NCBI RefSeq assembly: GCF_009674685.1
Contig: NZ_WKJI01000002.1
Location: 186,001-250,000 of the forward strand
Length of the DNA stretch: 64,000 nt
Direction: 5' to 3'
Source: Pedobacter puniceum
GTDB lineage: Bacteria > Bacteroidota > Bacteroidia > Sphingobacteriales > Sphingobacteriaceae
Part shown: one piece after another, positions 29,285 through 55,263 of the stretch
Position numbering within the stretch: the stretch's first letter is position 1
Layout: each line of letters starts with the position of its first letter
The notes under the pieces: model-generated
Told to the model about the DNA's origin: nothing
Seen by the model: only the letters and a program-made list of their open reading frames with translations
Database searches by the model: none
Made by a program: the position numbers and the translations under genes

Positions 29285-29292
29285 CAATTTTA
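29285..29292 (-). promoter_or_regulatory. TAAAATTG box of the GH28-uxaBA operon
   Basis: The complement reads TAAAATTG, one of four TAnnATTG boxes that sit 47-48 bp downstream of the shared operator motif. It is 117 bp before the GH28 ATG. No matching TTTG -33 element is evident, as would be expected for an activator-dependent promoter. Confidence 0.6.
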
Positions 29293-29340
29293 GCGAAAAA
29301 TAGGAAAGCATTTGAGTATTTAAGGGTATTTATTTGTGCA

Positions 29341-29358
29341 ATCGTTACCGGGAAGGTT
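29341..29358. promoter_or_regulatory. Conserved regulon operator, copy 1 (GH28-uxaBA)
   Basis: ATCGTTACCGGGAAGGTT, preceded by TGCA, carries the core GCAATCGWTRCCGG. Six of nine palindrome pairs match. The conserved half faces the TAAAATTG box, 48 bp away. The rest of the 331-bp gap (29168-29498) holds this site and the terminator of the SMP-30 unit and no gene. Confidence 0.75.
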
Positions 29359-29450
29359 TGCGTAAAAAATTAGAACAACTTTAGCATATTTTACATTTGG
29401 CAGACAAGATGAGCTAAATAAGATTTTCTTTTCTGCTTTTGAAAAGAAAA

Positions 29451-29483
29451 TCCCCTTTAATCTTGGATAAGATTAAAGGGGGA
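29451..29483 (-). terminator. Terminator after the SMP-30-like gene
   Basis: A 14-bp stem (29451-29464 with 29469-29482) and a 4-base loop. On the minus strand it is followed by a T-rich run. It lies 16 bp after the stop codon of the SMP-30-like gene and separates that unit from the GH28-uxaBA promoter. Confidence 0.85.
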
Positions 29484-29498
29484 AATATTAAAAATATT

Positions 29499-30320
29499 TT
29501 AGTCTAGCTTGAAAGCTAAAACAGAATTTTTAAGAAAAGTTGGAACATAAACGATACGCTTTACAGGATCATAACCAATATCGGCTGTATTAATTTTTTC
29601 TGTTCTGGTATCTAATAATTTTTCTACTTTACCACTTGTAGTTACGTAGTAAATTAAACCTCCCCAGCAAGAAACTAAAAACTCTCCGTCTTTAACGGGC
29701 TCTAATCCATCACCACCTAATTCTAAACCTTCAGCTAGTTTAGTAAGCTCTTTTTTAGCATTAGCTTTCCATAATTCTGGGCCGGCTAGCATATACAAAT
29801 CAGAACCGATAGCTTTTAAACCGTTTACGCTTTTAACATCGTTTAAATAAAGTTCAGGAACATTATTAACGATACGAAAAACCTTTCTTTTTCGTGTATC
29901 AGACACATAAACAACGCCTTTATCGTCTACAGTAACGTCGTTTAAAAACTCTGTTTCTGGCACTTCAATACGCTTGGTTATTTTAGCCGCTTTCATATCT
30001 ATCACTACAACCTCGGTTAAATCTGCAACGTACATGGTGTTTTTATAAACACCAATTCCTTTAGGTGCATTAAGGCCAGTTACCCAATTTAAATTGATGG
30101 ATTTACCATCTAAAGCTAACTTACCAATAGCACCTTTTTCATCTTTAACGCTACCGCCACCATCTATTTGCGAAACGTATAAAAGTTTCTCTTTAGCAGC
30201 GTAGTAAACAGATTCTGGTACCGGAATACTATCGGCAGATTTCCAAATTTGTGTAAGCTTATGCTGTGCATCAGCCTTTAAGGCTACAAAAAACAAAAAA
30301 GTAAAAAGTAGTTTTTTCAT
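29499..30320 (-). CDS. SMP-30/gluconolactonase-like beta-propeller, secreted
   Basis: A 273-residue secreted protein (LLFTFLFFVALKADAQ). It has a six-bladed propeller pattern: SIPVPESVYYAAKEKLLYVSQ, GLNAPKGIGVYKNTMYVADL, ETEFLNDVTVDDKGVVYVSDT and GGDGLEPVKDGEFLVSCWGG. This matches the SMP-30/gluconolactonase/LRE superfamily, though the canonical metal-binding Glu/Asn/Asp set cannot be confirmed by eye. It could hydrolyse an aldonolactone, which would suit the oxidised sugars made by the dehydrogenase at 17752-19044, or be a structural propeller. Last gene of the CE8-PL9-GH43 unit, 42 bp after CE8. Confidence 0.75.
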   Translation of the reverse strand: MKKLLFTFLFFVALKADAQHKLTQIWKSADSIPVPESVYYAAKEKLLYVSQIDGGGSVKDEKGAIGKLALDGKSINLNWVTGLNAPKGIGVYKNTMYVADLTEVVVIDMKAAKITKRIEVPETEFLNDVTVDDKGVVYVSDTRKRKVFRIVNNVPELYLNDVKSVNGLKAIGSDLYMLAGPELWKANAKKELTKLAEGLELGGDGLEPVKDGEFLVSCWGGLIYYVTTSGKVEKLLDTRTEKINTADIGYDPVKRIVYVPTFLKNSVLAFKLD

Positions 30321-30362
30321 GATGTTAGTTTATAATTTTCTTAAAACTAACTAATAGAATCT

Positions 30363-31343
30363 TTATTTAAAAGGCTGCCATCCGTTAAACACCTTAGACA
30401 GTGTATAAGCTCTCAGCTCTTTTTGCTTTAATTGATGTGCCCATTTTACTCTTTCTCGTACAAAGGCACCCAAGCCACTACTTCCATATTCTGCATAAAA
30501 AACGGTACTTTCATTTTTAGGGTCTCGCCAATTATCCCAACCTTCTGGTTTAATATGTTTATCCATAAAGGTGGATATAAATACCGTTTTAGCATGAGGA
30601 CGCCATGGCCTGCCTAAGAAAACTTTGGTAACTTTATCATCAGCGAAAAGCAATTTACAGTTCATAAATACAAAACCATACCTTGAATGGGAGGTAGTAG
30701 AAGCAGCAGTAATGTAAGAATCCTTTATGCTGATGATGTTACAGCTTTGAAACCATGCTGTTGCAGCTCCAAAGATAAAATCTGTAGTACCACTGATGGT
30801 GCAATTCTCGAAATAATTTCTTGCGCCATCCTTAGCAACATATAAAGTATCTTGATGACCTTTTATATCGCAATTTTTAACTGCGGTTCTATCGCCTTCT
30901 ATATGTAGCGCTACAGCCTGACCAACTGCACCAGCTGTGTTTTCTATAGTTAAATTTTGTAGTTCGCAATCGTTCCCTGCAATTAAGACGGTGTAAGAAG
31001 TATAAGTACTAAATTTTGGATTTCCGGTAATATCTGTCCCGGAGAAGATTTTACCAGAGTAATCTGCATGGCTAATGATGGTATTTTCTTTATTTTCTCC
31101 TTGCAGGATGATATTTCTTTTCCATGTTGGGATCACCAATTTTTCTTTATAGATACCCGGCTTTATAGTGATGGTGACTTTCTCTTCTGAATGGTCTCTT
31201 ACAGCATTTATAGCCTCTTGGATGGTTTTAAAATCTCCGCTACCATCTTGTGCTACCGTAAATTTTGATGGGTAAACTTTTGGTTGAGCTTGTGAAACGA
31301 TGATGCTTAAAAAACAGAAAAGAAAACCTAGAATATGCTTCAT
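30363..31343 (-). CDS. CE8 pectin methylesterase (copy 1)
   Basis: A 326-residue secreted protein (ILGFLFCFLSIIVSQAQ). Pectinesterase motifs are complete: the family start VAQDGSGDFKTIQEAINAV, AGAVGQAVALHIEGDR (first Gln), GHQDTLY (oxyanion Gln and acid Asp), TTDFIFGAA (nucleophile Asp) and FLGRPWRPHAKTVF (Arg). It removes methyl esters from homogalacturonan and so makes substrate for the pectate lyases. It lies 3 bp after a PL9 gene, so de-esterification and cleavage are co-produced. A paralog of the CE8 genes at 41422-42384 and within 34216-37944. Confidence 0.96.
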   Translation of the reverse strand: MKHILGFLFCFLSIIVSQAQPKVYPSKFTVAQDGSGDFKTIQEAINAVRDHSEEKVTITIKPGIYKEKLVIPTWKRNIILQGENKENTIISHADYSGKIFSGTDITGNPKFSTYTSYTVLIAGNDCELQNLTIENTAGAVGQAVALHIEGDRTAVKNCDIKGHQDTLYVAKDGARNYFENCTISGTTDFIFGAATAWFQSCNIISIKDSYITAASTTSHSRYGFVFMNCKLLFADDKVTKVFLGRPWRPHAKTVFISTFMDKHIKPEGWDNWRDPKNESTVFYAEYGSSGLGAFVRERVKWAHQLKQKELRAYTLSKVFNGWQPFK

Positions 31344-31346
31344 AAT

Positions 31347-32408
31347 TTAATCGAAAAAAGAAATGTTAGGTAAGCTACCATCTGCTTGACGAGGCTTTAA
31401 TAAATCCTGAATGTTTAAAACCTTTTGTTGAGCGGTAGGCTTTTGCCAGCTGTTATTGCTGATATCGGTTACATCGGCATTTATACTACCAACCTCACCT
31501 ATAACCTGAGTATTTTTTATAGTTAATTTTGATAATGGATTTTTACTTCCAAAACCCATATTGCTTTGCTTATTATCAAAAGCTAAACAATTTAACAAAG
31601 TAACTTCGCCGCGATTGCTGTTATGATCAAACCCCTTTTTTAAGTTACCCACTGCGATACAATTTTTGTAAATAGCATTGTGCTTAAGCAATTTATCATC
31701 GCTGCCGCCAGATTTAAAGCCATTTCCATCACCTCTGCCTGGTGTACCATCTTTTTGCATCCCATTTAAAAAAGCCCAGCAATTTTCGTAAGTAGTGGTA
31801 ATATTATCTGTCTTTTTGAGATAGCCATCCCAACCATCGTCTAAATTTTGCCAAGCCCTGCAACCTTTAAAAGTATTACCTGTACCGGCATCTAGTTTAC
31901 AAGCAAAACCATCGGCATTTTCTACTTTAGCATCTGCATTAAAATAAGAATCACAATTTAGGATGAGATTTTTAGTAGCACCGCCACTAATTTGTAAGCC
32001 AGTATCAGCACATTCTGAAAATGTGCAAAACTCAATGGTATTAAAACTTCCTCCGTTAATGATTAAGCCATTATCACCAGCATTAAAAACATCAATACCT
32101 TTTATATGCCAATAATGACCTCTTAAAGCTATACCTTGGTTAGCATCAGCTTCTAGCTGAGCAGAAAAATCAAATTTTGGTCGGTTTGCTAAATCGGCAG
32201 CCATTAATTTGATAGGCTTTTCAATAGTACCAGATGTATTTAAGTTTATACGAGCATCAAATTTATACTCGCCGCCCTTTATCAGAATAATATCTCCGGC
32301 TTTAGCTATTTTAACGGCAGCCAAAATTTCTGCAACATTATTTACTTGAATTTGTGCCTTTAAGGCGATGCTAAAAAGCAGTAAAAATGCGCTTAAAAAA
32401 TATCTCAT
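31347..32408 (-). CDS. PL9 pectate lyase (copy 1)
   Basis: A 353-residue secreted protein (LSAFLLLFSIALKAQ). The parallel beta-helix carries PL9 signatures: CDSYFNADAKVENADGFACKL, GCRAWQNLDDGWDGYL with the Asp cluster that binds Ca2+, and RGDGNGFKSGGSD containing the Lys expected to be the catalytic base. It cuts de-esterified galacturonan or rhamnogalacturonan backbones by beta-elimination. It is the compact form of the T9SS-tagged paralog at 37987-39723, with the same core but no C-terminal sorting domain, so it is likely periplasmic. It sits between GH43 and CE8 with gaps of 8 and 3 bp. Confidence 0.92.
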   Translation of the reverse strand: MRYFLSAFLLLFSIALKAQIQVNNVAEILAAVKIAKAGDIILIKGGEYKFDARINLNTSGTIEKPIKLMAADLANRPKFDFSAQLEADANQGIALRGHYWHIKGIDVFNAGDNGLIINGGSFNTIEFCTFSECADTGLQISGGATKNLILNCDSYFNADAKVENADGFACKLDAGTGNTFKGCRAWQNLDDGWDGYLKKTDNITTTYENCWAFLNGMQKDGTPGRGDGNGFKSGGSDDKLLKHNAIYKNCIAVGNLKKGFDHNSNRGEVTLLNCLAFDNKQSNMGFGSKNPLSKLTIKNTQVIGEVGSINADVTDISNNSWQKPTAQQKVLNIQDLLKPRQADGSLPNISFFD

Positions 32409-32416
32409 TATTTTAA

Positions 32417-34051
32417 TTATTTGATGGGTTCTACCTTAAACCAATCTACATCGGCATAGCCAGAGTCATTGATTTGTGTGTTTCTAACAGCATAAAGTCC
32501 AACTTTAGCACCTACCCATTTTCCTGGCAAAGCAGTAAAAGGCTCGGTAATAGGTAAAAACTTCTTATTATCTGTACTGTAAAACCATTTACAGATACCA
32601 CCATTACTAACCTGAACTCTGAAATACACAGTTTTAGTATCTATTTTATTAATGATACTTTCGACTTCTTCTTTACCCTTTACAGCTCCTTTACAAAGAC
32701 CATAGCCAAGATAGATACCATCCTTTTTGCTCTTGAGAAACAGGGTGCTATAATCTTGCCCTAAAATGATTAAGCCTACTTTTTCATTTTCTAACTTATC
32801 ATTTGGGGTAAAAGTAATTTTAGTTGTTACTTGAAAATTATCGGCAGGAAATTTCTGCCCTAAAATATTTGGAACATCCCATAGGCTTTTAGATTCTGCC
32901 GGAATTTGCTTGGTGTATAATCTTAAGTGGCCTTTATTACCGGCAAAAGCCCAAGTACCATCGGCATTTGCTTGCCATTGCCATTGCTTACCTAAAATTG
33001 GACTATTAAAATCATCAGACTCAACTGGTGTTTGCACAGGCCACGTTTTACCAACATTTGGCTTTTTATAAACTAAAACAGGTTCGCCTTTTCCATCGCC
33101 ATCTTTATCTTCACCAATAACTGGCCAGTCTTTTACCCATTTCATAGGTTGCAGGTGTAATACCCTGCCATAAGCTTCTTTGTCTTGAAAATGTAGAAAC
33201 CAATCTTCACCTGCTTGGGTATCAACCCAAGCGCCTTGGTGTGGGCCATTAATTGGGCTTTTGCCTTGGTCTAGAACATTCTTACGTTCATAAGGGCCAT
33301 AAATATTTTTAGACCTTAAAATAAGTTGCCAACCTGTAGGTACCCCACCAGCTGGAGCAAATATGTAGTAATAACCATTTCTTTTATAAAACTTAGGCCC
33401 TTCTATGGTTGGGTCATCCTCATGCCCATCATAAACAATTACACTTTGCCCGGTTACTTTGGTACCTTCTTGGTTCATGGGCGCAATGGCTATAACGCTT
33501 TTAATGCCTGCCCTGCTGCCTGCATAAGCATGTACGAGATAAGTTTTACCATCTTCATCCCAAAGCGGACAAGGGTCTATTAAACCTTTGCCCTCATAAA
33601 TTAATTCTGGTGTAGACCACGGACCAACTGGGTTACTGGCTTTGGTTACATAAATTCCAAAATCTGGGTCTGGATAATATATATAATACTCGTTTTTATG
33701 AAAACGTATAGCTGGTGCCCAAACACCATTACCATGTTGAACTTTCTTAAAAGTTTCGGCAGGGATTTGCTTTGGTAGAACATGCGTAAGGATAGTCCAG
33801 TTTACCAAATCTTTAGAGTGTAGTAAAGGCAAACCCGGTATATGGTTAAAGCTTGATGAAATCATATAAAAATCATCGCCTACGCGGATAGCATCAGGGT
33901 CTGAATAATCAGCATTTAAAACGGGATTTTTATATTTCCCATTGCCTAAATCGGCCACCCAAACTTTTGAAACATATTCCTGAGCAGAAATGGTTTGAAC
34001 AGAAAAGTAAGCTACAGATAGTAATAAGCTTTTAAGAAAATGTTTATTCAT
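32417..34051 (-). CDS. GH43 family beta-xylosidase/alpha-L-arabinofuranosidase with C-terminal beta-sandwich
   Basis: A 544-residue secreted protein (SLLLSVAYFSVQTISAQ). The five-bladed propeller shows the GH43 triad: DYSDPDAIRVGDDFYM near residue 49 (general base Asp), GLIDPCPLWDEDG near 160 (pKa-modulating Asp) and PTIEGPKFYKRNGYYY near 216 (acid Glu). Residues about 345-540 form the concanavalin-like GH43_C2 domain (DDFNSPILGKQWQW, VGLIILGQDYS, GLYAVRN). It removes arabinose, xylose or possibly galactose from pectic side chains. It is the first gene of the CE8-PL9-SMP30 unit, 27 bp after a conserved TAnnATTG box. Confidence 0.94.
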   Translation of the reverse strand: MNKHFLKSLLLSVAYFSVQTISAQEYVSKVWVADLGNGKYKNPVLNADYSDPDAIRVGDDFYMISSSFNHIPGLPLLHSKDLVNWTILTHVLPKQIPAETFKKVQHGNGVWAPAIRFHKNEYYIYYPDPDFGIYVTKASNPVGPWSTPELIYEGKGLIDPCPLWDEDGKTYLVHAYAGSRAGIKSVIAIAPMNQEGTKVTGQSVIVYDGHEDDPTIEGPKFYKRNGYYYIFAPAGGVPTGWQLILRSKNIYGPYERKNVLDQGKSPINGPHQGAWVDTQAGEDWFLHFQDKEAYGRVLHLQPMKWVKDWPVIGEDKDGDGKGEPVLVYKKPNVGKTWPVQTPVESDDFNSPILGKQWQWQANADGTWAFAGNKGHLRLYTKQIPAESKSLWDVPNILGQKFPADNFQVTTKITFTPNDKLENEKVGLIILGQDYSTLFLKSKKDGIYLGYGLCKGAVKGKEEVESIINKIDTKTVYFRVQVSNGGICKWFYSTDNKKFLPITEPFTALPGKWVGAKVGLYAVRNTQINDSGYADVDWFKVEPIK

Positions 34052-34077: not shown

Positions 34078-34085
34078 CAATTCTA
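34078..34085 (-). promoter_or_regulatory. TAGAATTG box of the GH43-PL9-CE8 unit
   Basis: The complement reads TAGAATTG. It is 47 bp from the conserved operator and only 26 bp before the GH43 ATG, giving a short leader of about 20 nt, unlike the 110-130 nt leaders of the other three copies. Confidence 0.6.
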
Positions 34086-34132
34086 CATAAAAAAATTCAA
34101 GATGTTGGAACTTCTGTCAGATAAACTATGCA

Positions 34133-34150
34133 ATCGATACCGGATATGCT
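34133..34150. promoter_or_regulatory. Conserved regulon operator, copy 2 (GH43 unit)
   Basis: ATCGATACCGGATATGCT, preceded by TGCA, carries the core GCAATCGWTRCCGG. The distal half is degenerate (4 of 9 palindrome pairs), but the half facing the promoter is intact, as in the other three copies. It lies between the terminator of the T9SS unit and the GH43 promoter. Confidence 0.72.
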
Positions 34151-34162
34151 AAACGCATAAAA

Positions 34163-34215: not shown

Positions 34216-37200
34216 TTATTGTTTGATAAATTTACTTGTAAATATTTCTTTACCGATATAGAGTTGGATGAAATAAACACCAGATTGAAGTGTAGAAACA
34301 TCAACTTTAGTTTGATTTTCTGATTTCAGTCCATCAATTTTTAAAACCTCTTTACCTAAACTATTAAAGATACTTAGTTTGCCAGTTGCTTTTGCTCCAA
34401 GATGAGAGATAGCCAGCTCAGAACTCACTGGATTTGGATAAATGATAGTCTGATTAATTGTAATATCAACCGCTTTTAAAGGACTATATTCAAACTTTCC
34501 ATCTAAATCTAATTGCTTTAAGCGATAATAACTAACACCTTTAAGAGGTGAGAAATCAGTAAATTGATAATTTAAATTACCACTCTTGTTTTGTGCTTTT
34601 ACATTACCAATCTTATTAAACACCTGTCCATCAACACTTCTTTCTATATCAAAACTTGCGGTATTGATTTCTTGTGTAGTAGTCCATTTTAAAGCAACCT
34701 CTTTACCTTGTCTTACAGCTTGTGCTTGAAAGCTTAAAAGTTTAAGAGGCAAAGTTTGATATGGCGTAGAAGCTAGACTTAAAGCGCCATACTCGCTTGC
34801 TGCCTGCACTGTATAAGTATAATTGGTATTACTAACAGCAGTATTATCTGTAAAACTATTGGTTAGTGAAAATCCTATCACATTATTATTTCTAGTAATT
34901 ACATACAAACGCGTATAAGGTACATCATTCCATGACAGGGTATTACCACTACGTTGCAAATTTGCAGGCTTATCTGGGGCTTCGGCTATTAACCTAGGAT
35001 CCCAAACATCACCACTTCTAAGAATTACATTTTCATAGGTATAACTTGCAGCCTCTGTATCAGTTAAAGATTTTTTAGCCACACCAGTTACTGTACTGGT
35101 TACGTTACCATTTGCATCTTTCACATCATACTCGTAATTAGAAATACGCTGACTTAAATCTACCGGATTACCTTGAGCATTAACAGTATTATAGTCTGCA
35201 AAAACAGCCGGAATAGCACCCATTTTATAATACCAACCAGCTGCATAAATTCCGGTTAATAGTTTGGTATTGATGAATACTGTTTTAGGAGCATTTTGCC
35301 AAGGACGACCGAAATAAGATGTTGCCCCAGATACAATAGACTCGTTAATGATACAATTACTAAATACATAACCCCAAGCTGTACCATTGCCATGACTTGG
35401 TGCTACAATATATCCGCCGTCTTTACGCGTCATGGTAATCGTATCTTTATCAAAAAACACATCGCCACCACCGTAAATAAAATCTACAGCACCTTCAATT
35501 TTAGAGTTTTTGATATAATGTCTATCAGCAATGCTGCTGTAGGCAGTTAAATAAGTATCTTGATAGCTTCTTAAGTAGCAATTATTCATTGCAAACTTAT
35601 CTGTTGTGGTATATAAAGCTAAAGCTTGTGGTCCTGCTTGCGTCTCGAAACCATAACTGTTTTCAAAAATAATATTCTCGAAATAGCAATCTTTTGAATT
35701 TACTACCATGGTAGCTCCTTGACTTACATGATATACCGTTGCACCGATGTTATTTGTACCAGATAATCTATTATCAGAAATGATAACCCCATTTCTACTT
35801 TGCCCTATTAAATGTATAAAGGGTTTATTGCTAGGAATATCATGGTGACCTGTGTATTTACCATTTTTAATAAAAATTACCCAAGGTGTGGTTCTTGATG
35901 CTGGTGCAGCAGCAATAGCATCTATAACCGAAGTATAATCACCCGAACCATCTTTTGCTACAACAGCGTCAAACAATTTTCTTGTAGGTTGTGAACGACT
36001 TGCAGTTGTAAAAGTTATAGTTGTACCAGCATAAGGGTTACCAGACATATCTGTTAAAGCGCCTGCAGGAACGGTAAAAGTATATGAAGTGTTGTAATTT
36101 AGTTTCTCGTAAGCAAAAGTTGCTGTTTTAGAACCAAAAACCGGTGTTAAGACAGTACTTCCAAGTGTAATATTACCTGTACCTGCTTTAACCTTTTCAT
36201 TAAATGTAAGCACTATAGATCCATTTATTGTTGCAGTAGAAGATGCCGACGCAGGAACGCTAGAAATTAATAAAGGTGCGTTGGTGTCGTTTACAATTTC
36301 TTTATCTGCAAAAATGAAGATATTGGTAAAAGCCGTCCCATCATTATCTGTTGAGTTTCCTAAAATAGGGCTAGAAGTATCAGCAATCCATTTTAAATAA
36401 ACTCTAGCTTGTCCTTCTGCTGCAACAGGTAAAGTAACATTTAAGTCTTTCCAAGCAGTATTGTAAACGCTTGTGATATCAACACTTGCAACATCTGTAT
36501 AGGTAATATCATCTAAAGAATATTGGAGTCTTTGTACAGAATAGGCTTGATAATTAGCCGTAATCATAGATTTTACCTGAATATTTTTATACCCGGTTGT
36601 TGTAAATTGTGCTTTTAAATACCTACGATTGGTTAAAAAATTAGCCGCTGCTGTCCAAAACCTTAAATTTGGATAAGCAGGAGAAAAAGAGCCAGTGTTA
36701 GATAACCAGTTTACAGCTGTGCCGTTTGGCTCATGAATAGATATCAACCCGGTATTACTAGACTCTGAGTAAAAATCTCCAGTACGGTTAATTTTAGGGT
36801 TCTCTGATTTAAAATCCCAGCCAACAATAAAAGGAATCTCATCAAAAGTTGCTGTAAAAGTTTTATCAGAATTAATAGTTACAATTTTTTGTAATGCTGT
36901 AGAATTATCATCCCAATAGCTAAAACTGGTTACCCGATTAGGAATAACCGTCATGGTTACTTCTGTACCTTCAACATATCTTCCATTTGTTGGGGCTGGA
37001 GATAAATTAACTTCACCCCAGTTAGAACCAATTTTATTAAGAGTAAAACTGTATGTAGTGAGGGTCTCAAAAACAGCTGTAATATTTTGTGAGGCATTTA
37101 CTGTGATTACGTACGGATTGGTTGTAGATAAATCTGCATTATTATCCGTATTAATCCATTTTACAAATCTATAACCAAAATTGGCTACTGCCTGTATACT

Positions 37201-37944: not shown

Positions 37945-37986
37945 AATACTTGTTTTTATTTGATATTATTTTGAGCTAGTTCTTAT

Positions 37987-39723: not shown

Positions 39724-39744
39724 TGAAATAAATGACAGAGAAAT

Positions 39745-39780
39745 AAAGGGCGTGACTTTTTAAAAGGAACACGCCCTTTT
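39745..39780 (-). terminator. Hairpin between the unassigned T9SS protein and T9SS PL9
   Basis: AAAGGGCGTG at 39745-39754 pairs perfectly with CACGCCCTTT at 39770-39779. On the minus strand the tail is TTTATTTC, so termination may be partial, giving more of the first protein than of the lyase and esterase downstream. No separate promoter is visible in the 73-bp gap. Confidence 0.7.
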
Positions 39781-39796
39781 GTTAAGGATGATTAGG

Positions 39797-41250: not shown

Positions 41251-41258
41251 CAATTCTA
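41251..41258 (-). promoter_or_regulatory. TAGAATTG box of the T9SS unit
   Basis: The complement reads TAGAATTG, exactly 48 bp from the conserved operator and 119 bp before the start codon of the unassigned T9SS protein. Identical to the box in front of the GH43 unit. Confidence 0.62.
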
Positions 41259-41324: not shown

Positions 41325-41340
41325 GTAGTAAAAAGGAAAT

Positions 41341-43126: not shown

Positions 43127-43882
43127 CTATTTTTTTACAGGTTTAATGATTTTTGAGCTAATGGCTAAGTTTAACGATTTTATTTCTGCCAATACCAATT
43201 GCGCCATATACCGGGCTCCTAACTCGTTAAAATGTGTGTCATCTATTTTTCCACTTGGATAATTAGGATTTTGACCAGGCGCTAAATGATTAAATAAATG
43301 GGCAGATTTTTCTACCCCAAAATCTTGAAGTAGTTTCATGCTACTAACAGATAAATCTATCAAAGGGACTTTATTTTTTTTAGCCACTTCTCTTACCAAA
43401 GCAGCATAAACTTCGTGTGTATCTACAATCTTACCTTCAGCATTAAATTTTCTTCTGGCAACGGGTGTAATTAAAACGGGGATAGCTTTCTTTGATTTGC
43501 TTTCTTTTACAAACTTTAAAAGATTGGCTTTAAAATCCTTTTCAGTAGTATAGCTCTTTTTGCTTGGTACTTCATCATTATGCCCAAATTGGATAAATAC
43601 ATAATCTCCTTTTTTCAACTTATTTAAGATGGGCTGCCACCTGTTTTCTTCTATAAAAGTTCTGGTACTTCTACCGTTTTGTGCATGATTTTCTACCACT
43701 ACTGTAGAATCAAAAAAGTGAGTAAAAGGCATGCCCCAACCAGTTTCTGGATAAGCTTTTATACTTTTTTGAGACATGGTAGAATCGCCAATTAAATAAA
43801 GAGTTGTTTTATCTTTAGCTTGGTTAAAAGCTAAAACCATAACAGCCAAAAAAACAAAACTTATTTGTTTTAAGAATTTCAT
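43127..43882 (-). CDS. CE12 rhamnogalacturonan acetylesterase (copy 2)
   Basis: A 251-residue secreted SGNH hydrolase (FLKQISFVFLAVMVLAF). It carries YLIGDSTMSQ, ENHAQNGRSTRTFI, VFIQFGHNDE and DDTHFNELGA, so the Ser, Gly/Asn, Asn and Asp/His set is complete. It deacetylates pectin to expose the backbone to PL1 lyases whose genes lie directly upstream. The 11-bp gap from the PL1 gene and 2-bp gap to the second CE12 gene indicate one transcript. The Lys-rich C-terminus is short and shows no sorting signal. Confidence 0.94.
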   Translation of the reverse strand: MKFLKQISFVFLAVMVLAFNQAKDKTTLYLIGDSTMSQKSIKAYPETGWGMPFTHFFDSTVVVENHAQNGRSTRTFIEENRWQPILNKLKKGDYVFIQFGHNDEVPSKKSYTTEKDFKANLLKFVKESKSKKAIPVLITPVARRKFNAEGKIVDTHEVYAALVREVAKKNKVPLIDLSVSSMKLLQDFGVEKSAHLFNHLAPGQNPNYPSGKIDDTHFNELGARYMAQLVLAEIKSLNLAISSKIIKPVKK

Positions 43883-43893
43883 CTATTTATAAA

Positions 43894-46761: not shown

Positions 46762-46772
46762 GTTAATGGAGC

Positions 46773-48272
46773 TTATTTGTATTGATTTTCTGTAATTGTT
46801 GCCACTATACTATTGATATAAACTTCAATATTATCGTATGCTGTACTTAAATCTCTACCGCTGGCGTTAGCTTTGGTATGATCTAATTTCTTTGCTTTTT
46901 CCCAATCATCGGGCATTCCATCACCATCGGTATCTAGCAAAACTGCTGTTTGTACAAGCGTTGGCCATCCACCTACATCCCCTTGTTTATCTATAATACC
47001 CGGAAGCCCCGAAATAGAACCGTTAAAAGTTGTTGTACCGTTTCTTACTTCATTTATAATTCTGGTATCAATTGCGTCTCGTTTTAAACTCGAACCAACA
47101 TAACTTAGTACTGCTGCATAAGCTTGTTCTGCGGTATGTACAGGTATAACAACAGCCTCAAATGGTGATGTTTTTTGTGCCATGGCTTTGGTAACTCCAG
47201 AATCAAAATCAACACCTCCGTTCCAATTATCTGCACTTACTGTAGGGTTTCCAAAAACAAAATTACCTGCGATATAAAAAGTACCATAACCAACACCATA
47301 ATCTGCAGGGTTTGTTGCTCCGGTAGTATTATCCTTAGAAACTTGCATAATTCTGTTTCTTCTGGTAGATGGGGTAGCCGGTCCGTATTTATAATAATTA
47401 TTTACCATATTATATTCGCCGTTCTCACCACCATAAGTACTATTACCACTCCAATTGTAAACTACGTTATTTCTATAGTCAATTTTATCGGCACCGTATT
47501 TACCTATCCCTGTACCACTACCACCACTGTATCTTTTACCACCATCAAAACGTGGGTTTCTATTGGTATGATGTGCTAATAAGTTATGATGAAAAGTAGC
47601 CGGACTTCCTCCCCAAATACCTCCATAACCATGTGCTCCTTTAGAGTGGCCAGAGTTATTCATACTTTCTGAAATGATGCACCACTGCATGGTAAAGTTT
47701 TTATTGTGATAGAAAGATGCTGTCTCATCTATAGACCAACTGATAGAACAATGGTCTAACACAATATTTTCTATTTCTCTGCCCCATAAAGCATCGCTTT
47801 CTATGGTTGCCACGTTGGTATCTCCCAACCTAAATCTCATATATCTGATGATGACATTGTTGGCAGCTATGTTAGTTTCATAGTCTTGCAAGCAAATTCC
47901 ATCACCAGGAGCTGTTTGACCAGCTATGGTGACATCGCCATTTCTTATTTGTAGACGACTTTTAAGTTTGATATTACCCGAAACTTCAAAAACGATTATT
48001 CTAGGGCCAGTAGCATCAACGGCAGCTCTTAAGCTTCCTGTACCACTATCGTTAAGATTAGTTACTTTAATAACTCTTCCTCCTCGCCCTCCGGTTGTAT
48101 TTTTACCAGCGCCTTCTGCACCTGGAAAAGCAACGGCTGTTTCTATAACTCTTTCAGGTAAATTTTCTTTCGGAATTACAGAATCTGTAAAGCCAGTATT
48201 AACCTTGTTCTTTTTACAAGAGGTAAAGCAGAACAGGGCTATCACTATAAAGCTTAAAATATTTTTTGACAT
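46773..48272 (-). CDS. PL1 pectate lyase, lipoprotein (copy 3)
   Basis: A 499-residue lipoprotein (LSFIVIALFCFTSCKKN). It has the same tether as copy 2 (NKVNTGFTDSVIPKENLP) and the PL1 motifs GAEGAGKNTTGGRGG, VTIAGQTAPGDGICL, VIIRYMRFRLGD, VLDHCSISWSIDE and HHTNRNPRFDGG. Note SWSIDE instead of SWSTDE and an inserted loop after NPRFDGG (KRYSGGSGTGIG), so substrate preference may differ from copy 2. It ends DTDGDGMPDDWE. A strong hairpin lies in the 61-bp gap from the preceding surface protein gene and may set its expression level. Confidence 0.95.
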   Translation of the reverse strand: MSKNILSFIVIALFCFTSCKKNKVNTGFTDSVIPKENLPERVIETAVAFPGAEGAGKNTTGGRGGRVIKVTNLNDSGTGSLRAAVDATGPRIIVFEVSGNIKLKSRLQIRNGDVTIAGQTAPGDGICLQDYETNIAANNVIIRYMRFRLGDTNVATIESDALWGREIENIVLDHCSISWSIDETASFYHNKNFTMQWCIISESMNNSGHSKGAHGYGGIWGGSPATFHHNLLAHHTNRNPRFDGGKRYSGGSGTGIGKYGADKIDYRNNVVYNWSGNSTYGGENGEYNMVNNYYKYGPATPSTRRNRIMQVSKDNTTGATNPADYGVGYGTFYIAGNFVFGNPTVSADNWNGGVDFDSGVTKAMAQKTSPFEAVVIPVHTAEQAYAAVLSYVGSSLKRDAIDTRIINEVRNGTTTFNGSISGLPGIIDKQGDVGGWPTLVQTAVLLDTDGDGMPDDWEKAKKLDHTKANASGRDLSTAYDNIEVYINSIVATITENQYK

Positions 48273-48291
48273 GACTTTTGAATAGAAGTTT

Positions 48292-48327
48292 TAAAAGCAG
48301 GAGTGCCAAAAAGCCTCTCCTGCTTTA
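48292..48327 (-). terminator. Internal hairpin within the core PUL, after the surface lipoprotein gene
   Basis: TAAAAGCAGGAG at 48292-48303 faces CTCCTGCTTTA at 48317-48327. On the minus strand it is followed by TTTTAAAAC, a weak tail. It falls between the susCD-surface-protein block and the lyase/esterase block, so it may work as a partial terminator or as a 3' end stabiliser rather than a full stop. Confidence 0.65.
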
Positions 48328-48333
48328 TAATAT

Positions 48334-49935
48334 TTATTTACGCCATCTAGGGTCTCCAGAATCAGATTTCCCTATAAAGGAATTATCTAGGATGGTGAAA
48401 TTACCATTATCTGGATTGGTGAATAATGCAGTGCTTGCATTATTATAATCTATGATATTAGGAATAGCATTAGCAGAAATTACAGCATCAGTAGTTTTAT
48501 AAGAATTTACTACCACCAAAGAAGTTCCTCCGTAACGTATGCCTCTTGCAGATGCCGTAGGAGATAAAGTTTTACCAATAATATTGTTCTTGAAAGAGAA
48601 AGTAGTTACGTTTTGCGCATTATAATCAATAAGATATCTTGCGTTACCAACAACATTGTTAAAGGTATTATTCTCTATAATTAAAGCATTTGTTGGTGCC
48701 AGGTTATGCAATATTAAACCATAACCTATTTTATAAAATGTGCTATTGGTAATAGTGATATTATTGATTTTACCTGTAGCTACGTTGGTATTTATAAACG
48801 CATAAGTACCATTAGAGGCATTATCGCCAATATCATAAACAATACATTTATTAACGGTAAACTTATCTATAGTAATTGGGTTTGCACCTTGCATACGCAT
48901 TGGCGTATTTACAAAATTCCTGATGATACAGTTTTCAAATATTATTTCTGTAGTGTTAGAAGAAAGACTTTGGTTAAATATATAATTACGCTTAGCCTTT
49001 GTTGGGTCTCCAAATTGATAACCGCTTAAATCTATATTTTCAAATTTAATAGTGCCATGGGCTGCACCAAGTGTTATCCCGTTTAAAGCTACTATTGGCT
49101 TATTTGGCCCATCTTGACCGTAAATGGTAATAGACGTATTGGCTGGTAAAACAACCGTGTTATCTGAGCTATAAACAGAATTTTGTAATAGTACAAATAT
49201 AGTCCCATTAGCAGCATTCTGTAATAAAGCAGCTAAATCATCTGTTGCTCCAACATTAACAACATTGGGTCCAGTTGGTAATAGTGATAAAGTACGGAAT
49301 GGCTGAGAACCCCTAATAGAATTATTATAGTATAAAACTGCTGTATAACCATTGTCTGGAGTTAAACCAGTGATAGTTTTTGTTCCTGCTGCTTTTTCTT
49401 GAGCCGAGATATCATACCTGTTTGTTCCAATCATGAAATGAGAAACTTGATTAGGTATTCTCCATTTTAAAACTACTGTAGTTGTGGTTACATCGGCAGG
49501 AGTTACATTTAGCATAATTTGCTCTGTGGCTGTTTTAAAAGTAACAGCTGTCCATTGCGATTCATTTTTAACATCGGTAGTATCTATACCTTTTATTCTT
49601 GCAGAATATCTGGTTGTAGGATCTAACAAATCTGGGATTTCAAAACTATATCCGTTTGCAGTTTTAACACCTTGAGTTTTATAAGTACTTACAATCTGCG
49701 AAAACTGCAAACTATCCTTACTTAATTCAACCACATAAGAATTTGTAGCTGGCTTGCCTTTCCAAGTTAAGGTTGCTGTAACACCGCTTACAGAAGCAGT
49801 TAATTCTGAAGGACGAAACAGTCTATCAAAACTTTCATCAACCTCCCATTCTAAAGTTTTTTTACAGGAAGACAATCCTGTTATGATTAAGCCTATAACA
49901 AAGACTTGTAAAAATATCTTCTTTATTGTTTTCAT
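48334..49935 (-). CDS. Surface lipoprotein with fibronectin type III domains and beta-helix (DUF4957/DUF5123-like)
   Basis: A 533-residue lipoprotein (VIGLIITGLSSCKKT). Residues about 40-135 and 140-215 are two FnIII-like domains (RPSELTASVSGVTATLTWKG and VTTTTVVLKWRIP). Residues about 225-530 are a right-handed beta-helix with VVLPANTSITIYGQDG, FENCIIRNFVNTPMRMQGA and a final TNPDNGNFTILDNSF typical of the DUF4957/DUF5123 pair found in pectin PULs. No lyase Arg motif is evident. Its place right after susD, 13 bp away, is the usual position of a surface glycan-binding protein, which I think it is; weak lyase activity cannot be excluded. Confidence 0.8.
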   Translation of the reverse strand: MKTIKKIFLQVFVIGLIITGLSSCKKTLEWEVDESFDRLFRPSELTASVSGVTATLTWKGKPATNSYVVELSKDSLQFSQIVSTYKTQGVKTANGYSFEIPDLLDPTTRYSARIKGIDTTDVKNESQWTAVTFKTATEQIMLNVTPADVTTTTVVLKWRIPNQVSHFMIGTNRYDISAQEKAAGTKTITGLTPDNGYTAVLYYNNSIRGSQPFRTLSLLPTGPNVVNVGATDDLAALLQNAANGTIFVLLQNSVYSSDNTVVLPANTSITIYGQDGPNKPIVALNGITLGAAHGTIKFENIDLSGYQFGDPTKAKRNYIFNQSLSSNTTEIIFENCIIRNFVNTPMRMQGANPITIDKFTVNKCIVYDIGDNASNGTYAFINTNVATGKINNITITNSTFYKIGYGLILHNLAPTNALIIENNTFNNVVGNARYLIDYNAQNVTTFSFKNNIIGKTLSPTASARGIRYGGTSLVVVNSYKTTDAVISANAIPNIIDYNNASTALFTNPDNGNFTILDNSFIGKSDSGDPRWRK

Positions 49936-49948
49936 AACTGTTTATCTA

Positions 49949-51802
49949 TTAAAAGTTATATCCGTTTTTAAGAGTACCCTGAGATTCGCTAATAACAGAA
50001 TTAGGAATTGGGTATAAATGCCTGTTTTCTACACCTGCCGAGTTAAGACCGCTGCTAAATAAATCTATACGCTCTATATAACTGGTGATATTTGCTGCTG
50101 TTGAACCAGATAACCATGGTATTCTAGTAAAACCTGCTATATCTACAGCTCCACGATCTGTGTAGAAGTTTATGGTTGATTTTTCTAAGATTTCGTTATT
50201 AGTTTCATATTTATAAAATAAGAACTTTGGTAAAGCATCATAAGGAGCTGTACCGGCTAACATTTTCTTGAAATCATCTCTTTGCTTCTGAATTTTAGCG
50301 GTTAATAAGTTCCAACGAATTAAATCATACTTACGAATAGCTTCTCCGCCAAATTCAAATGCTCTTTCATCAACAATAGCATTAAAAAACGCCGACTCGC
50401 TATTAAGTGCATCAACATAAGCTTCTACTTTTGCAGGACGATCTGCCTCTATAAATGCTCTTCTTCTTACTTGTTTCAAGGCTAATTTAGCAGCAGCAGT
50501 AGGCGCTCCGTTAAGTGCATTTTCTGTTTCTGCAAACATTAATAAGATGTCTGAGTAGCGCATTACTGCCCAATTGATACCGTATCCAAATTTTCCCTGA
50601 GCTGCTTTATTTAGCGCAGACCATTTTTCGCCCATAAAACGTTGATCCCATTTAGCAAAATTGTAAGACAAAGGGTTGGTTTGGAATATCTCTTTTACAT
50701 CGCCCGCACTATTGCTATAAGTATAATAAGCTATGGTGTTATCTCTTCTTATATCTTTGGCATCAAACATGTAGAAATAATAAGCCGTTGTATTTACCAC
50801 ATTGGCATTATTACCAAAACCGTATTTAGCATTGGTGTAAAACCTAATTCCTATAGAATAGCCCATCTCGCCACTTCTTCCTAAACCATGTGCTACCTCA
50901 AATAAGTTCTCATTAAAAGTACCATCAAGTTCTAAACGGCATAATTTTTTCCAGACATCTATATAGTTGTTATTTAACTGATGCACTCCTTGTTGCATCA
51001 CCTCACTACATTTCTGATTGGCCAATTGGTAATATTTTCTCCAATCGCTACCTCTTTCTGTAGGGAAACCCGGTTTGTTTCTGATAGAATATCCACCTCT
51101 AAACAAGGCTATTCTGGCAGTTAAACCTTTGATAAAGCCTTTAGTTACACGCTCTACACTTGTATAATTACCTTGTTTAACCCAAGGAACATATTTTTCT
51201 GCCTCTAATAAATCAGCAATGATGTTGTCATAAATAGTATCTCTATCGGTTACTGGTAGGTAAACGTTAGAAAGATCAAACTTTGTAGGCTCTGCTTTAT
51301 AAGGTACATCGCCCCAATTTTTAACCAATTCAAAATAAGCTAAAGCTCTTAGGGTTAAAGCCTCACCCAAGTAGGCTTTCATTTTGGTAGAATCGGCAGT
51401 AGACATTACCGGACTTTTTTTAATCCCATCGATACAAAGATTAGCTCTTTCTATCATCTTATAAATTAATGTCCACTCTCTTGAGATAGAGTTATTATCA
51501 GGTGTACCTAAATAATTTGATAATCCACGGTTAGTATTTTCTTTATAACTGTTTGCATCTGCGCCAACAATCTCTATATCAGAATTGGTGGCATAATTAA
51601 GTGATAACCTTGCAGAATACATTTGGTCTTGTGTAAGCAAAGCATATATACCAGTAACAGCATAATCTGTATAAGTTGGCGATGTAAACACCAAATCTGA
51701 TGTAAATTCTGATGGTGATGAGGTATCTAAATAATCTTTATTACAAGATACTATGCTAAAGCTAGTTAAAGCTAATATTGCTATTAATATTCTCTGTTTC
51801 AT
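49949..51802 (-). CDS. SusD-like outer-membrane glycan-binding lipoprotein
   Basis: The frame is open to an ATG at 51814, but the ATG complementary to 51800-51802 starts the lipoprotein signal cleanly (MKQRILIAILALTSFSIVSC), so I use it: 617 residues. SusD/RagB features are the lipobox Cys, an N-terminal YLDTSSPSEFTSD segment, the TPR-rich helical core (AYLGEALTLRALAYFELVKNWGD) and the C-terminal RYSDILLMFAE and DERAFEFGGEAIRKYDLIRW. It caps the SusC channel and captures pectic oligosaccharide. It begins 11 bp after the susC stop. Confidence 0.95.
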   Translation of the reverse strand: MKQRILIAILALTSFSIVSCNKDYLDTSSPSEFTSDLVFTSPTYTDYAVTGIYALLTQDQMYSARLSLNYATNSDIEIVGADANSYKENTNRGLSNYLGTPDNNSISREWTLIYKMIERANLCIDGIKKSPVMSTADSTKMKAYLGEALTLRALAYFELVKNWGDVPYKAEPTKFDLSNVYLPVTDRDTIYDNIIADLLEAEKYVPWVKQGNYTSVERVTKGFIKGLTARIALFRGGYSIRNKPGFPTERGSDWRKYYQLANQKCSEVMQQGVHQLNNNYIDVWKKLCRLELDGTFNENLFEVAHGLGRSGEMGYSIGIRFYTNAKYGFGNNANVVNTTAYYFYMFDAKDIRRDNTIAYYTYSNSAGDVKEIFQTNPLSYNFAKWDQRFMGEKWSALNKAAQGKFGYGINWAVMRYSDILLMFAETENALNGAPTAAAKLALKQVRRRAFIEADRPAKVEAYVDALNSESAFFNAIVDERAFEFGGEAIRKYDLIRWNLLTAKIQKQRDDFKKMLAGTAPYDALPKFLFYKYETNNEILEKSTINFYTDRGAVDIAGFTRIPWLSGSTAANITSYIERIDLFSSGLNSAGVENRHLYPIPNSVISESQGTLKNGYNF

Positions 51803-51813
51803 AATCAACTTCA

Positions 51814-54800
51814 TTAAAATGTAACATTAATTCCTCCAATAAATGAGCGACTCTTTGGATAAGCAGAGTAGTCTACTCCTGGCGTTACAGGTGGGTTTCT
51901 TCTGGCGTCCACCTCTGGATCAAAACCTGTATAGTTGGTAATGATAAACAAGTTATAACCAGTTACATACAATCTTAAATTACTCATACCTAATCTTTTA
52001 GAAACCTTATTAGGTAAGGTATAGCCTAATGTTAAAGTATTTAATCTTAAGAAAGACCCATCTTCTATAGCCCAAGAATGTAAAGGAGTTTGTGTCATTA
52101 ACGGATGCCAAATAGAAGCATTTTGATTAAGCTCTTGTAATCTTTGTGGATCTCCAAATCTGCCATAAGCAATATTATTACCTGTTAACGGATCAATAGT
52201 AGTAAACCTATTATTGATACTCATTTCTGATGTTAAGTTTTGATATCTCCTAGATAAAAGGAAAGAGGTAAAATCTAATTTATTGGCATTGTAAATACTG
52301 TTCCCATAAGTCCAGTTGAAAGCCGCAAACAAATCAAATGCTTTATATTTTGCTACCAAGTTAAAGCCACCAATATGTTTTGGGTTTGAGTTACCAATAA
52401 CCGTTCTATCAAAACTATTGATTACACCATCAGGCACCCCGTCAGGACCGCTTATATCTTTAAACTTAAGAGTTCCTGGGCCAAAATAATTTGCAGAAAT
52501 TAAAGCACTGTTATTTGGTACGCCTGATACAAGATCCCATTTTTGAGCTCCTGCATTCCAAGTAAAATCATTAAATGAATACATCCCATCGGTTACATAT
52601 CCAAACATTTGCCCAACTGGCAAACCTTGTTGTATGAGATAGTCTTCAAGAGGTTGTGCTGTACCATTCCAACCAGAAGTAAATAACTTGAAGTTAGCAT
52701 CTCCATTTTTATACTCTTCAACTCTATTTCTATTGATACCAAAATTAACAGATGCAGAAAGCTTAAAATCTTTTTTATCAATGATATAACCATCCAAGGT
52801 TAGCTCAATACCTCTGTTTGAAGTACTGCCAAAGTTTTGGTATTGACTAGGAAAACCAGAGCTTTGTGCTAAAGGCGCTTGTACTAATAAATCTTTAGTT
52901 TTATTTAAATAAGCATCAAAAACTACATTAATCCTTCCGTTAAATAAACTTGCATCTAAACCAACGTTACTGTTAACAGTAGTTTCCCATTTTAATTCTG
53001 GATTATATAAAAAGTTACCCGGGATAAAGTTGCTAGACTCTACCTCGTTCAAGAAATATGGCTTGTTTTCATTATTGGTGGTATAAATAGATTGCCAAGC
53101 ATTATTTGGAATTCTATTATTACCCGTACTACCATAACTAGCTCTTAATTTTAATTGTTGTAACCAATCTGCTTGGGATTTTAGGAAATTTTCCTCAGTC
53201 ATTTTCCAAGCTACTGCTACTGAAGGAAAATATCCCCAACGGTTACCCGGAGCAAATTTACTTGAACCATCTGCTCTTAAAGTACTGGTTAGGATGTATC
53301 TATTTTTAAAAGTATAGTTTAATCTTCCAAAATAAGATGATAAACGATCATCCTGAGAAATATAGCTTACTGTTGGTATTGCTGTACCAAAATTAAAATT
53401 TGCTAATACATCATCAGCACTCATATCTACCGGGAAAAATCTAGACTCATTGGTAACTGATTTAAAACCCGATGATAAAAGTTCTTGACCTGCTACAACA
53501 TTTAAAGCATGATTTTTACTTAAAAATTTATTGTTATCATAAGTAAAATAGTTAGCTACACGGTAGGAATTGCCATTTAAAGAGGATACATTTCCTATAG
53601 GCTGCCCAGCATAATTTCTAGCATTTGAGGTTGCCGGCCCCCAAACGTTATCTGTTTTATCGTATCTAAATTCGTATCCACCTTCGGTTCTGAAAGAAAA
53701 CTTCTTGGTGATTTTCCATTTTAAGCCCGCGTTTAAGTTGTTATTAAACCTGTATTGCTTTTTATATTCATCCAGAGCAGATTCTACCGGATTATACAAT
53801 AAACTTTGAGTTTCTGCATCAATAAAGTCATCATCATCTACCAATGATTGTTCAAAACCTCTTAAACCTCTTGTTGGTGCATATTTTATAGAGTTTCTTA
53901 AACGTGTAGTAGCTCCAGAGCCAACGTTTACACCCGCACCGTCTATTAATAAATAAGATAATCTTGTATTAAAGTCTACACTTAGTTTAGATGAGATATC
54001 TGTATTGAGTTTAAAATTTAAGTTGTTACGCTCGTAACCAGAGCCTATCATCACACTTTGTTCTTTATTTCTTGTTAAACCAAAGTTGTATCTGGTATTT
54101 TTTGAGCCTCCACTAATTCCTAAATTATAAAACTCTTGAGAAGCGTTTCTACCAAATACTTGGTCTTGCCAATTACTTCCTTGAACTGATTTATAGATGT
54201 CTAAATCTTGATAAACCCCATAATAATTTTGAAAGGTAGTAGTTTGATCAAGTTCGTATTGATATAATACGTACTCGTAAGGACTCAAAGCCTCTAGCTC
54301 TTTAGTAATGGTTCTAAAACCAGCATAAGCATTAGCCGTTACACTAATTTTCCCTTCTTTTCCTTCTTTAGTTGTGATAACAATTACCCCATTTGCCGCT
54401 CTAGAACCATAAATAGCGGTTGAAGCAGCATCCTTTAAAAAAGTAATATTTTCTATATCTGATGACGCTATGTTGTTGATACTACTTACCGGAAAACCAT
54501 CCACAATATAAAGAGGTGAGTTATCTTGTGATATAGAACCTCCTCCTCTTAACCTTACTTTAATTTCGGCATCAGGAGAACCTTCTGTGGTAACGACCTG
54601 TAAACCAGCAATTTTTCCTGTTAAGGCTTCTGCTACGTTTGGAACTGGAACTTTAGCTAATTCTGAACCTGTAACAACACCAACAGAACCTGTTAAATCA
54701 CTTTTTTTAACAGTACCATAACCAACAACTACAACTTCATCTAAAGATTTAGTATCATCTTCTAAAGTGATATTGAAATTATTTTGACTACCAACCGTAA

Positions 54801-55050
54801 TTTCTTTTGATTTAAAACCAATGTATCTTACAACTAGTACTGTGTTACCTACACTTGGGATATTTAACTTAAATGAACCATTAACATCTGTAGTAGCTCC
54901 TTGGCTGGTTCCTTTTATGCCTACACTTACACCTATGAGAGCCTCCCCAGACTTGTCAATTACTTTACCGGTGATTTGTCTTGTCTGTGAGAAAGCAGAC
55001 ATCGCAATGACGCTTAGCAAGACTAAAAACAGTAGAAATCGTTTAATCAT
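51814..55050 (-). CDS. SusC/RagA-type TonB-dependent outer-membrane transporter
   Basis: The frame extends to a GTG at 55074, but the ATG complementary to 55048-55050 begins the signal peptide (RFLLFLVLLSVIAMSAFSQ), giving 1078 residues. After the signal come a carboxypeptidase-like beta-sandwich (TRQITGKVIDKSGEALIGVS), the TonB box region (DEVVVVGYGTVKKSDLTGSV), the plug (GKIAGLQVVTTEGSPDAEI, GSRAANGVIVITTK) and a 22-strand barrel closing with YPKSRSFIGGINVTF. No STN domain, so no direct anti-sigma signalling. It imports pectic oligomers with SusD. The first gene of the core PUL, 140 bp after a TACCATTG box. Confidence 0.96.
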   Translation of the reverse strand: MIKRFLLFLVLLSVIAMSAFSQTRQITGKVIDKSGEALIGVSVGIKGTSQGATTDVNGSFKLNIPSVGNTVLVVRYIGFKSKEITVGSQNNFNITLEDDTKSLDEVVVVGYGTVKKSDLTGSVGVVTGSELAKVPVPNVAEALTGKIAGLQVVTTEGSPDAEIKVRLRGGGSISQDNSPLYIVDGFPVSSINNIASSDIENITFLKDAASTAIYGSRAANGVIVITTKEGKEGKISVTANAYAGFRTITKELEALSPYEYVLYQYELDQTTTFQNYYGVYQDLDIYKSVQGSNWQDQVFGRNASQEFYNLGISGGSKNTRYNFGLTRNKEQSVMIGSGYERNNLNFKLNTDISSKLSVDFNTRLSYLLIDGAGVNVGSGATTRLRNSIKYAPTRGLRGFEQSLVDDDDFIDAETQSLLYNPVESALDEYKKQYRFNNNLNAGLKWKITKKFSFRTEGGYEFRYDKTDNVWGPATSNARNYAGQPIGNVSSLNGNSYRVANYFTYDNNKFLSKNHALNVVAGQELLSSGFKSVTNESRFFPVDMSADDVLANFNFGTAIPTVSYISQDDRLSSYFGRLNYTFKNRYILTSTLRADGSSKFAPGNRWGYFPSVAVAWKMTEENFLKSQADWLQQLKLRASYGSTGNNRIPNNAWQSIYTTNNENKPYFLNEVESSNFIPGNFLYNPELKWETTVNSNVGLDASLFNGRINVVFDAYLNKTKDLLVQAPLAQSSGFPSQYQNFGSTSNRGIELTLDGYIIDKKDFKLSASVNFGINRNRVEEYKNGDANFKLFTSGWNGTAQPLEDYLIQQGLPVGQMFGYVTDGMYSFNDFTWNAGAQKWDLVSGVPNNSALISANYFGPGTLKFKDISGPDGVPDGVINSFDRTVIGNSNPKHIGGFNLVAKYKAFDLFAAFNWTYGNSIYNANKLDFTSFLLSRRYQNLTSEMSINNRFTTIDPLTGNNIAYGRFGDPQRLQELNQNASIWHPLMTQTPLHSWAIEDGSFLRLNTLTLGYTLPNKVSKRLGMSNLRLYVTGYNLFIITNYTGFDPEVDARRNPPVTPGVDYSAYPKSRSFIGGINVTF

Positions 55051-55189
55051 AATTTTGTTTATAATTTTTAACACTTTAGGTTAGAGTTATTAAAACCGCA
55101 TGAATAAAAATCATGATAGACCAGCTTTTTCAAGTGGAAATCTTGCTATGAGTAGGTGTAAAATGATATGTTTATTTAATTGGCTTGAA

Positions 55190-55197
55190 CAATGGTA
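55190..55197 (-). promoter_or_regulatory. TACCATTG box of the susC operon
   Basis: The complement reads TACCATTG, 48 bp from the perfect operator palindrome and 139 bp before the susC ATG. It differs from the other three boxes only at the free positions 3 and 4. Confidence 0.6.
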
Positions 55198-55245
55198 AAC
55201 AGTTTTTAAAGAAAAAAAAAGTATCTACTTTAAAAAAACTACGCA

Positions 55246-55263
55246 ATCGATGCCGGCATCGAT
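55246..55263. promoter_or_regulatory. Conserved regulon operator, copy 4 (susC / lacI intergenic), perfect palindrome
   Basis: ATCGATGCCGGCATCGAT is a perfect 18-bp palindrome preceded by CGCA. It lies between divergent susC and the LacI-family gene, 97 bp before the chosen lacI start and in the 309-bp gap 55051-55359, which has no gene. It is the strongest copy of the motif found before four units. The gene next to it encodes a LacI protein, the family that typically binds palindromes with a central CG. Confidence 0.85.

Follow-up and report, generated by a model that had tools for sequence, protein, structure and literature searches.

In a 64,000-nucleotide stretch of the Pedobacter puniceum genome (contig NZ_WKJI01000002.1; C2:186001-250000 in genome numbering; hereafter the window), four units of minus-strand genes for pectin use lie beside a gene for a LacI-family regulator, and each unit is preceded by the same putative operator and promoter box. 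The regulator gene, lacI, is found on the plus strand as an open reading frame (ORF) at 55309..56367, with a probable true start at 55360 (MFKPTTIKDIA), since homologues align from about residue 17. The adjacent unit 4 (41422..55074) encodes SusC, SusD, a DUF4957/DUF5123 protein, three unknown proteins without a Pfam match, two GDSL esterases and a CE8 pectinesterase. Unit 3 (34216..41131) consists of three proteins with sorting tails of the type IX secretion system (T9SS), namely a protein of unknown function, a PL9-like protein and a CE8 protein, and unit 2 (29499..34051) of GH43, PL9-like, CE8 and arylesterase-like proteins. Unit 1 (22339..29191) comprises GH28, a GH88-family protein, a tagaturonate reductase (uxaB) and an altronate/galactarate-dehydratase-family protein (uxaA). 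The original prediction for this DNA had named these units GH28-uxaBA, GH43-PL9-CE8, a T9SS trio and susC, which the Pfam assignments bear out; they add the GH88-family gene to the GH28 unit and extend the susC unit to the CE8 gene at 41422. Beyond lacI lies an inner hexuronate operon (56426-60886) with an MFS transporter, a KDPG aldolase, a PfkB kinase and uxaC. Of the genes scanned in the interval 22339-60886, three of whose proteins matched nothing, none was recognised as part of a hybrid two-component system (HTCS) or of an extracytoplasmic function (ECF) sigma/anti-sigma pair.

The exact 14-mer GCAATCGWTRCCGG occurs at 29338, 34130, 41304 and 55243, the four positions first reported for it, always on the plus strand and ahead of minus-strand genes. 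Each copy belongs to a 24-bp operator that faces its unit on the minus strand. Operator 4 (55243..55266) lies between susC and lacI, and its inner 18 bp (55246-55263) do form the perfect palindrome previously noticed, while the distal half matches at 9/12 positions in operator 1 (29338..29361), 5/12, near random, in operator 2 (34130..34153) and 8/12 in operator 3 (41304..41327). On the promoter side, 15-24 bp from the operator centre, minus-strand A/T tracts follow at 29326..29335 (AAATAAATAC), 34118..34127 (A/T-rich), 41292..41301 and 55231..55240. The -7 boxes, also on the minus strand, are TAAAATTG for the GH28 unit (29285..29292), TAGAATTG for both the GH43 unit (34078..34085, operator centre 56 bp away) and the T9SS unit (41251..41258), and TACCATTG for the susC unit (55190..55197, operator centre 57 bp away). 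The gap from the box, CAATnnTA on the plus strand, to the 14-mer is 45, 44, 45 and 45 bp; the spacings of 48, 47, 48 and 48 bp given earlier are correct when measured to the 18-bp site. By a crude estimate assuming independent sites, four boxes at such equal spacing have a chance of about 2e-9.

A chance motif could be ruled out by scans of the window and of the genome. With up to two mismatches, the window holds 7 matches to GCAATCGWTRCCGG against 0.47 (sd 0.67) expected, a number reached in 0 of 100 shuffles. Exact copies number five in the 3.9-Mb genome (10 contigs), where the reversed control pattern does not occur; when up to two mismatches are allowed there are 39 places (5 exact, 1 with one mismatch and 33 with two) versus 51 for the control, and therefore the exact class alone exceeds the control. 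The composite CAATnnTA-N44-46-GCAATCGWT is found four times in the whole genome, every time inside the window, so that the genome-wide scan for motif plus spacing, proposed earlier as a check, shows a distribution that is not random. The fifth exact site (C2:701096; L005:1501) lies ahead of a gene for a GFO/IDH/MocA oxidoreductase in the same orientation, with the weak box TAAATTCA exactly 57 bp away, and is conserved in four species (L005, L107, L169, L172). Sigma70-type promoters were also sought in the region ~54900-55500 and discarded, as 2 were found versus 2.1 expected.

The exact 14-mer is present in 120 of 301 genomes of the family. From the first-listed places in these 120 genomes we gathered 112 distinct exact sites (80 fetched regions plus the earlier loci), taking an exact half with its CCGG as the criterion; many of these sites are full palindromes. 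The operator in relatives is a 24-bp palindrome, GCAATCGWTRCC followed directly by GGYAWCGATTGC, with a central CpG, the hallmark of LacI-family operators. The 18-bp site first proposed is thus present as the inner part of an operator whose conserved length is 24 bp. We also considered that each 14-16 bp unit might be a full dimer site centred on ATCGAT, but perfect 24-bp palindromes in several genera favour a single palindrome centred between CC and GG. Among 113 gene-facing records, TAnnWTTG is placed 57 bp from the centre 27 times, 58 bp eight times and 56 bp four times, and at any other offset at most twice. TAnn[ATC]TTG lies at 56-58 bp in 46 of the 79 records with an exact promoter-facing half versus 2 of the 34 others. 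A scan of the 301 genomes with a free gap of 30-60 bp yielded at least 150 places, and among the matches listed gaps of 44, 45 and 46 bp account for 18, 34 and 14, versus 84 for the remaining 28 gap values together; the gap-44 class is partly conserved coding sequence. As in class-I-type promoters, the site therefore stands at a fixed upstream distance (offsets 56-58 bp).

All collected loci were rescanned without the CCGG requirement, including 37 regions chosen from the 66 rows with gaps of 44-46 bp after exclusion of coding-like rows and of those already in the set. This gave 97 rows, of which 82 carry a purine-pyrimidine step (RY) after the half (15 were dropped), and 61 non-redundant modules once those agreeing by 75% or more across 68 bp had been removed; they span 12 genera, mapped by hand, and at least two (L262, L306) resemble coding matches. 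The centre is CpG in 57 of the 61, including 18 of the 21 whose loci had been retrieved by a query lacking CCGG. The distal half varies widely: at most 5 of 12 positions match in 12 modules and all 12 in 15 (random mean 3.5). The half facing the promoter, said earlier to be always intact, is so at 49 of 52 box-bearing sides, the sites having been collected by one exact half. All 48 distinct box-bearing sides have RY after the half, as do 14 of 22 opposite sides whose half is nearly intact. For intact halves the count is 24 of 31 where they lie outside ORFs and have no box at the site, and 5 of 34 where they lie inside ORFs. The A/T content of the ten bases that come next is 87%, 71%, 74% and 47% in these four classes, in the order given. 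RY and the A/T tract thus belong with promoters. Boxless intergenic sites are intermediate in both respects; some of them may work with boxes of another kind. At three loci (L220, centre 3084; L243, centre 12709; L283) a single palindrome has correctly spaced boxes on both sides, an arrangement in which one operator could serve two divergent promoters.

The core promoter of these modules departs from that of other genes. Base 5 of the box is A in 46 of the 61 modules, C in 15 and T in none, although the pattern allowed T (G was excluded by it). The 424 upstream regions that lack the unit contain TAnnTTTG 114 times in sense versus 62 in antisense orientation, and TAnnATTG 58 versus 67 times; T at base 5 alone is enriched on the sense strand, so the general box has T there. 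Starts of TTG or TTTG 22-25 bp upstream number 31 for 97 control TAnnTTTG boxes (background ~2 per offset) and 15 for the 61 modules, seven of them TTG at offset 23 (background ~3 per offset). The absence of a -33 TTTG, claimed at the outset, therefore holds for the four window promoters, none of which has TTG 22-25 bp before the box, but not for the modules at large, where the signal is weaker than in controls yet present. The core is in this sense non-consensus, as in class-I-type promoters. In Flavobacterium psychrophilum the box TAnnTTTG is mapped at -12 to -5, according to an excerpt of the published study (PMC9723704); on that scale the operator centre would lie near -69 and the A/T tract at about -54 to -45.

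The protein belongs to the LacI/GalR family, with an N-terminal LacI helix-turn-helix (HTH) domain (PF00356, 1.6e-10) and a periplasmic-binding-protein-like domain (PF00532, 2.2e-22; PF13377, 1.3e-20), all above the curated cut-offs. Its relatives of solved structure are CcpA, PurR, RbsR and Cra, and it scores below the NCBIfam equivalog cut-offs for CcpA (152/442 bits), Cra (150/385) and PurR (150/501). In a tree of 57 LacI rows, 26 of the 32 rows of one clade (support 99/96) carry an operator unit (R position relaxed to N) no more than 400 bp upstream of lacI; as two row pairs are identical, this amounts to 24 of 30 distinct rows. Outside this clade the unit is found in 0 of 25 rows (six own paralogues, 16 of a sister group, mostly Mucilaginibacter, and three distant ones). 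Homologues in Mucilaginibacter (~55% identity), which fall in this separate clade and have no unit upstream of lacI, were thus rejected as users of the same operator. Six of these sister genes (L050, L052, L053, L054, L057, L076) share a conserved upstream stretch near TTTTTCTTATGTTTACT, perhaps the operator or promoter of their own clade. Within the genus, a LacI orthologue of at least 73% identity occurs in 9 of 18 genomes, which hold 4, 3, 2, 4, 4, 3, 3, 3 and 4 composites; these 30 (one, in G040, without RY) compare with 3 in the nine genomes lacking an orthologue, of which six have none and G138, G075 and G065 one each. The composites of G138 and G075 are the same sequence and lack RY. 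Together with the pectin targets, this clade-specific operator and genus co-occurrence support the earlier proposal that one LacI protein would control all four units.

The targets in relatives are likewise genes of pectin use, as judged from 19 of 50 module-downstream proteins scanned (one of them, at L239, gave no family). Pfam places GH28 (L113, L114), GH43 (L179, L220), PL9-like (L129, L211), CE8 (L207), GDSL (L217) and GH2 (L244) proteins, a TonB receptor (L222) and an ECF sigma factor (L080) behind modules, as well as the mannitol-dehydrogenase family to which UxaB belongs (L213, L229) and a short-chain dehydrogenase read as KduD-like (L109). One-mismatch boxes precede GH88 (L240) and GFO/IDH/MocA (L190) genes. 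The ECF sigma factor gene (L080/L194; G055:C34, near 16345) is preceded by a full palindrome, 57 bp from which stands TAATATTG, and the regulon may therefore command a sigma factor in one relative.

We consider it probable, from motif, spacing and gene content, that the LacI protein encoded at 55360-56367 acts as a class-I-like activator of a pectin regulon through the 24-bp operator. In class I activation of the CRP type, the activator binds at a fixed distance upstream, with an A/T tract between its site and a weak core promoter. The present promoters are alike in site distance, intervening tract and weak core; they differ in having a LacI-family protein, a Bacteroidota -7 box and, at some promoters, one half-site that would suffice. 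LacI would occupy the palindrome with its central CpG, with the gene-facing half as the anchor. The A/T tract that comes after RY, 15-24 bp away from the centre of the operator, could together with RY hold the C-terminal domain of the RNA polymerase alpha subunit (alpha-CTD), since the tract would then match, by analogy with Escherichia coli class I promoters, the place of this domain between site and core. The TAnn[A/C]TTG box, beginning 57 (+/-1) bp from the centre, would form a core too weak on its own, having no T at base 5 and little -33 signal, so that susCD, the secreted pectinases and the galacturonate genes would be strongly expressed only with the regulator bound. Judging by gene content, the effector is likely a uronate from pectin or a catabolic intermediate. 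The near-rigid spacing before unrelated genes argues for direct contact with RNA polymerase, and the non-consensus -7 boxes with their weak -33 signal for activation rather than repression. That this LacI binds the predicted operators seems to us very likely. Given binding, geometry and promoter quality make activation likely, an estimate lowered slightly because the -33 signal is weakened rather than missing. The original suggestion that fixed spacing fits activation thus finds support in about a dozen genera.

Several observations weigh against this interpretation. The best-known LacI-family proteins repress. The -33 signal of the modules is reduced, not absent; the fifth genomic site has only the weak box TAAATTCA despite the same distance; and in the window scan the hexuronate operon, part of the pathway, has no exact site in front. 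Moreover, 33 of the 79 records with an exact promoter-facing half lack TAnn[ATC]TTG at 56-58 bp, six rows of the operator clade lack the unit ahead of their own lacI gene, and G065 retains an RY-bearing module without a LacI orthologue. This perfect module (L185, G065:C27:82500-88500) stands before a short kduD-like frame and exuT-like frames, beside a different LacI-family gene. The frames read as gene remnants, and the module is therefore likely a relic and may not be a counter-example.

The main rival is contact repression of the GalR type, in which the same LacI at the same sites would repress through upstream contact with RNA polymerase, or else by DNA looping, until released by a pectin intermediate. 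GalR represses galP1 by contacting RNA polymerase from a site at -60.5, and the shared features are a LacI-family dimer, a fixed upstream position and polymerase contact, for which a rigid position is likewise needed. LacI-family proteins also usually act by repression, the target genes are without exception catabolic, and some relatives keep TTG at -33 (7 of 61 at offset 23). The present promoters, however, look intrinsically weak and would therefore need no repressor: the box lacks the T at base 5 for which other promoters in these genomes are enriched, and control boxes show a stronger -33 signal. A UP-element-type A/T tract that is confined to the promoter side points to stimulation, and the window operators, 5-14 kb apart and one per promoter, argue against looping. 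We therefore regard repression as possible but rather unlikely.

That a different regulator binds the sites, with lacI merely one of its targets, appears doubtful to a greater degree. In its favour, the half-site is conserved over 12-14 bp, more than the 9-10 bp or so of a classical LacI half-site. Against it, operator linkage is specific to one LacI clade, the central CpG palindrome is typical of the family, and the scanned genes of the locus include no second regulator, three unknown proteins being without Pfam match. The LacI paralogue at C2:254666 was discarded as a candidate, as it adjoins genes for an FGGY kinase, a xylose-isomerase-like protein and an SSF protein. It is very improbable that the spacing was simply inherited with duplicated or orthologous promoters and is mechanistically meaningless: orthologous promoters are indeed alike in close species (G018, G091 and the window genome have nearly the same spacers), but 61 modules persist after the redundancy cut, the downstream genes are from unrelated families, and the four equal window spacings have the very small chance estimated above.

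Regulators of the same family acting on galacturonate and glucuronate use in Bacteroidota are known from Bacteroides, where UxaR, KdgR and UxuR are LacI-family hexuronate regulators according to excerpts of two studies (Ravcheev 2013, PMC3878776; 2014, PMC4052901). The pectin loci of Bacteroides thetaiotaomicron are assigned there to HTCS (PMC3878776), and the descriptions of the three regulators in these excerpts, compared as descriptions only, contain no activator geometry. For the pectin locus of Gramella flava, a figure legend names an exuR repressor (PMC5306329). LacI-family proteins able to activate include Cra/FruR, PckR and GntH, in the excerpted text and, for GntH, the reference list of PMC4052901. 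The promoters described here would resemble theirs in being activated from an upstream operator. CcpA is a further LacI-family protein able to activate from such an operator; it and the other three are global or dual regulators from other phyla, and our LacI falls well short of the bit scores that NCBIfam requires for CcpA and Cra. No LacI-family activator of a polysaccharide or pectin locus in Bacteroidota was found among the matches listed from open-licence PMC text, which, with subscription papers outside the scope, is weak evidence of novelty.

Collectively, these observations soundly describe a LacI-linked pectin regulon that spans about a dozen genera of the family, shows an activator-type promoter architecture and is larger than first proposed. 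The more general view has, in our estimation, about an even chance of being right: that a LacI-family protein in Sphingobacteriaceae is a dedicated class-I-type activator for which one promoter-facing half-site can suffice, coupled at a near-invariant distance to a non-consensus -7 box and to an A/T tract of the alpha-CTD type, the whole being a portable module before unrelated pectin genes. If true this would be unusual, as LacI-family proteins are best known as off-switches, and a LacI regulon in charge of susCD, of the secreted pectinases and of galacturonate catabolism would do the work of HTCS in a simpler way, with a cytoplasmic sensor. The combination of half-site, A/T tract and TAnn[A/C]TTG serves as a signature by which targets can be predicted in further genomes of Sphingobacteriaceae, and the module makes activator contact with the Bacteroidota RNA polymerase a directly testable question.

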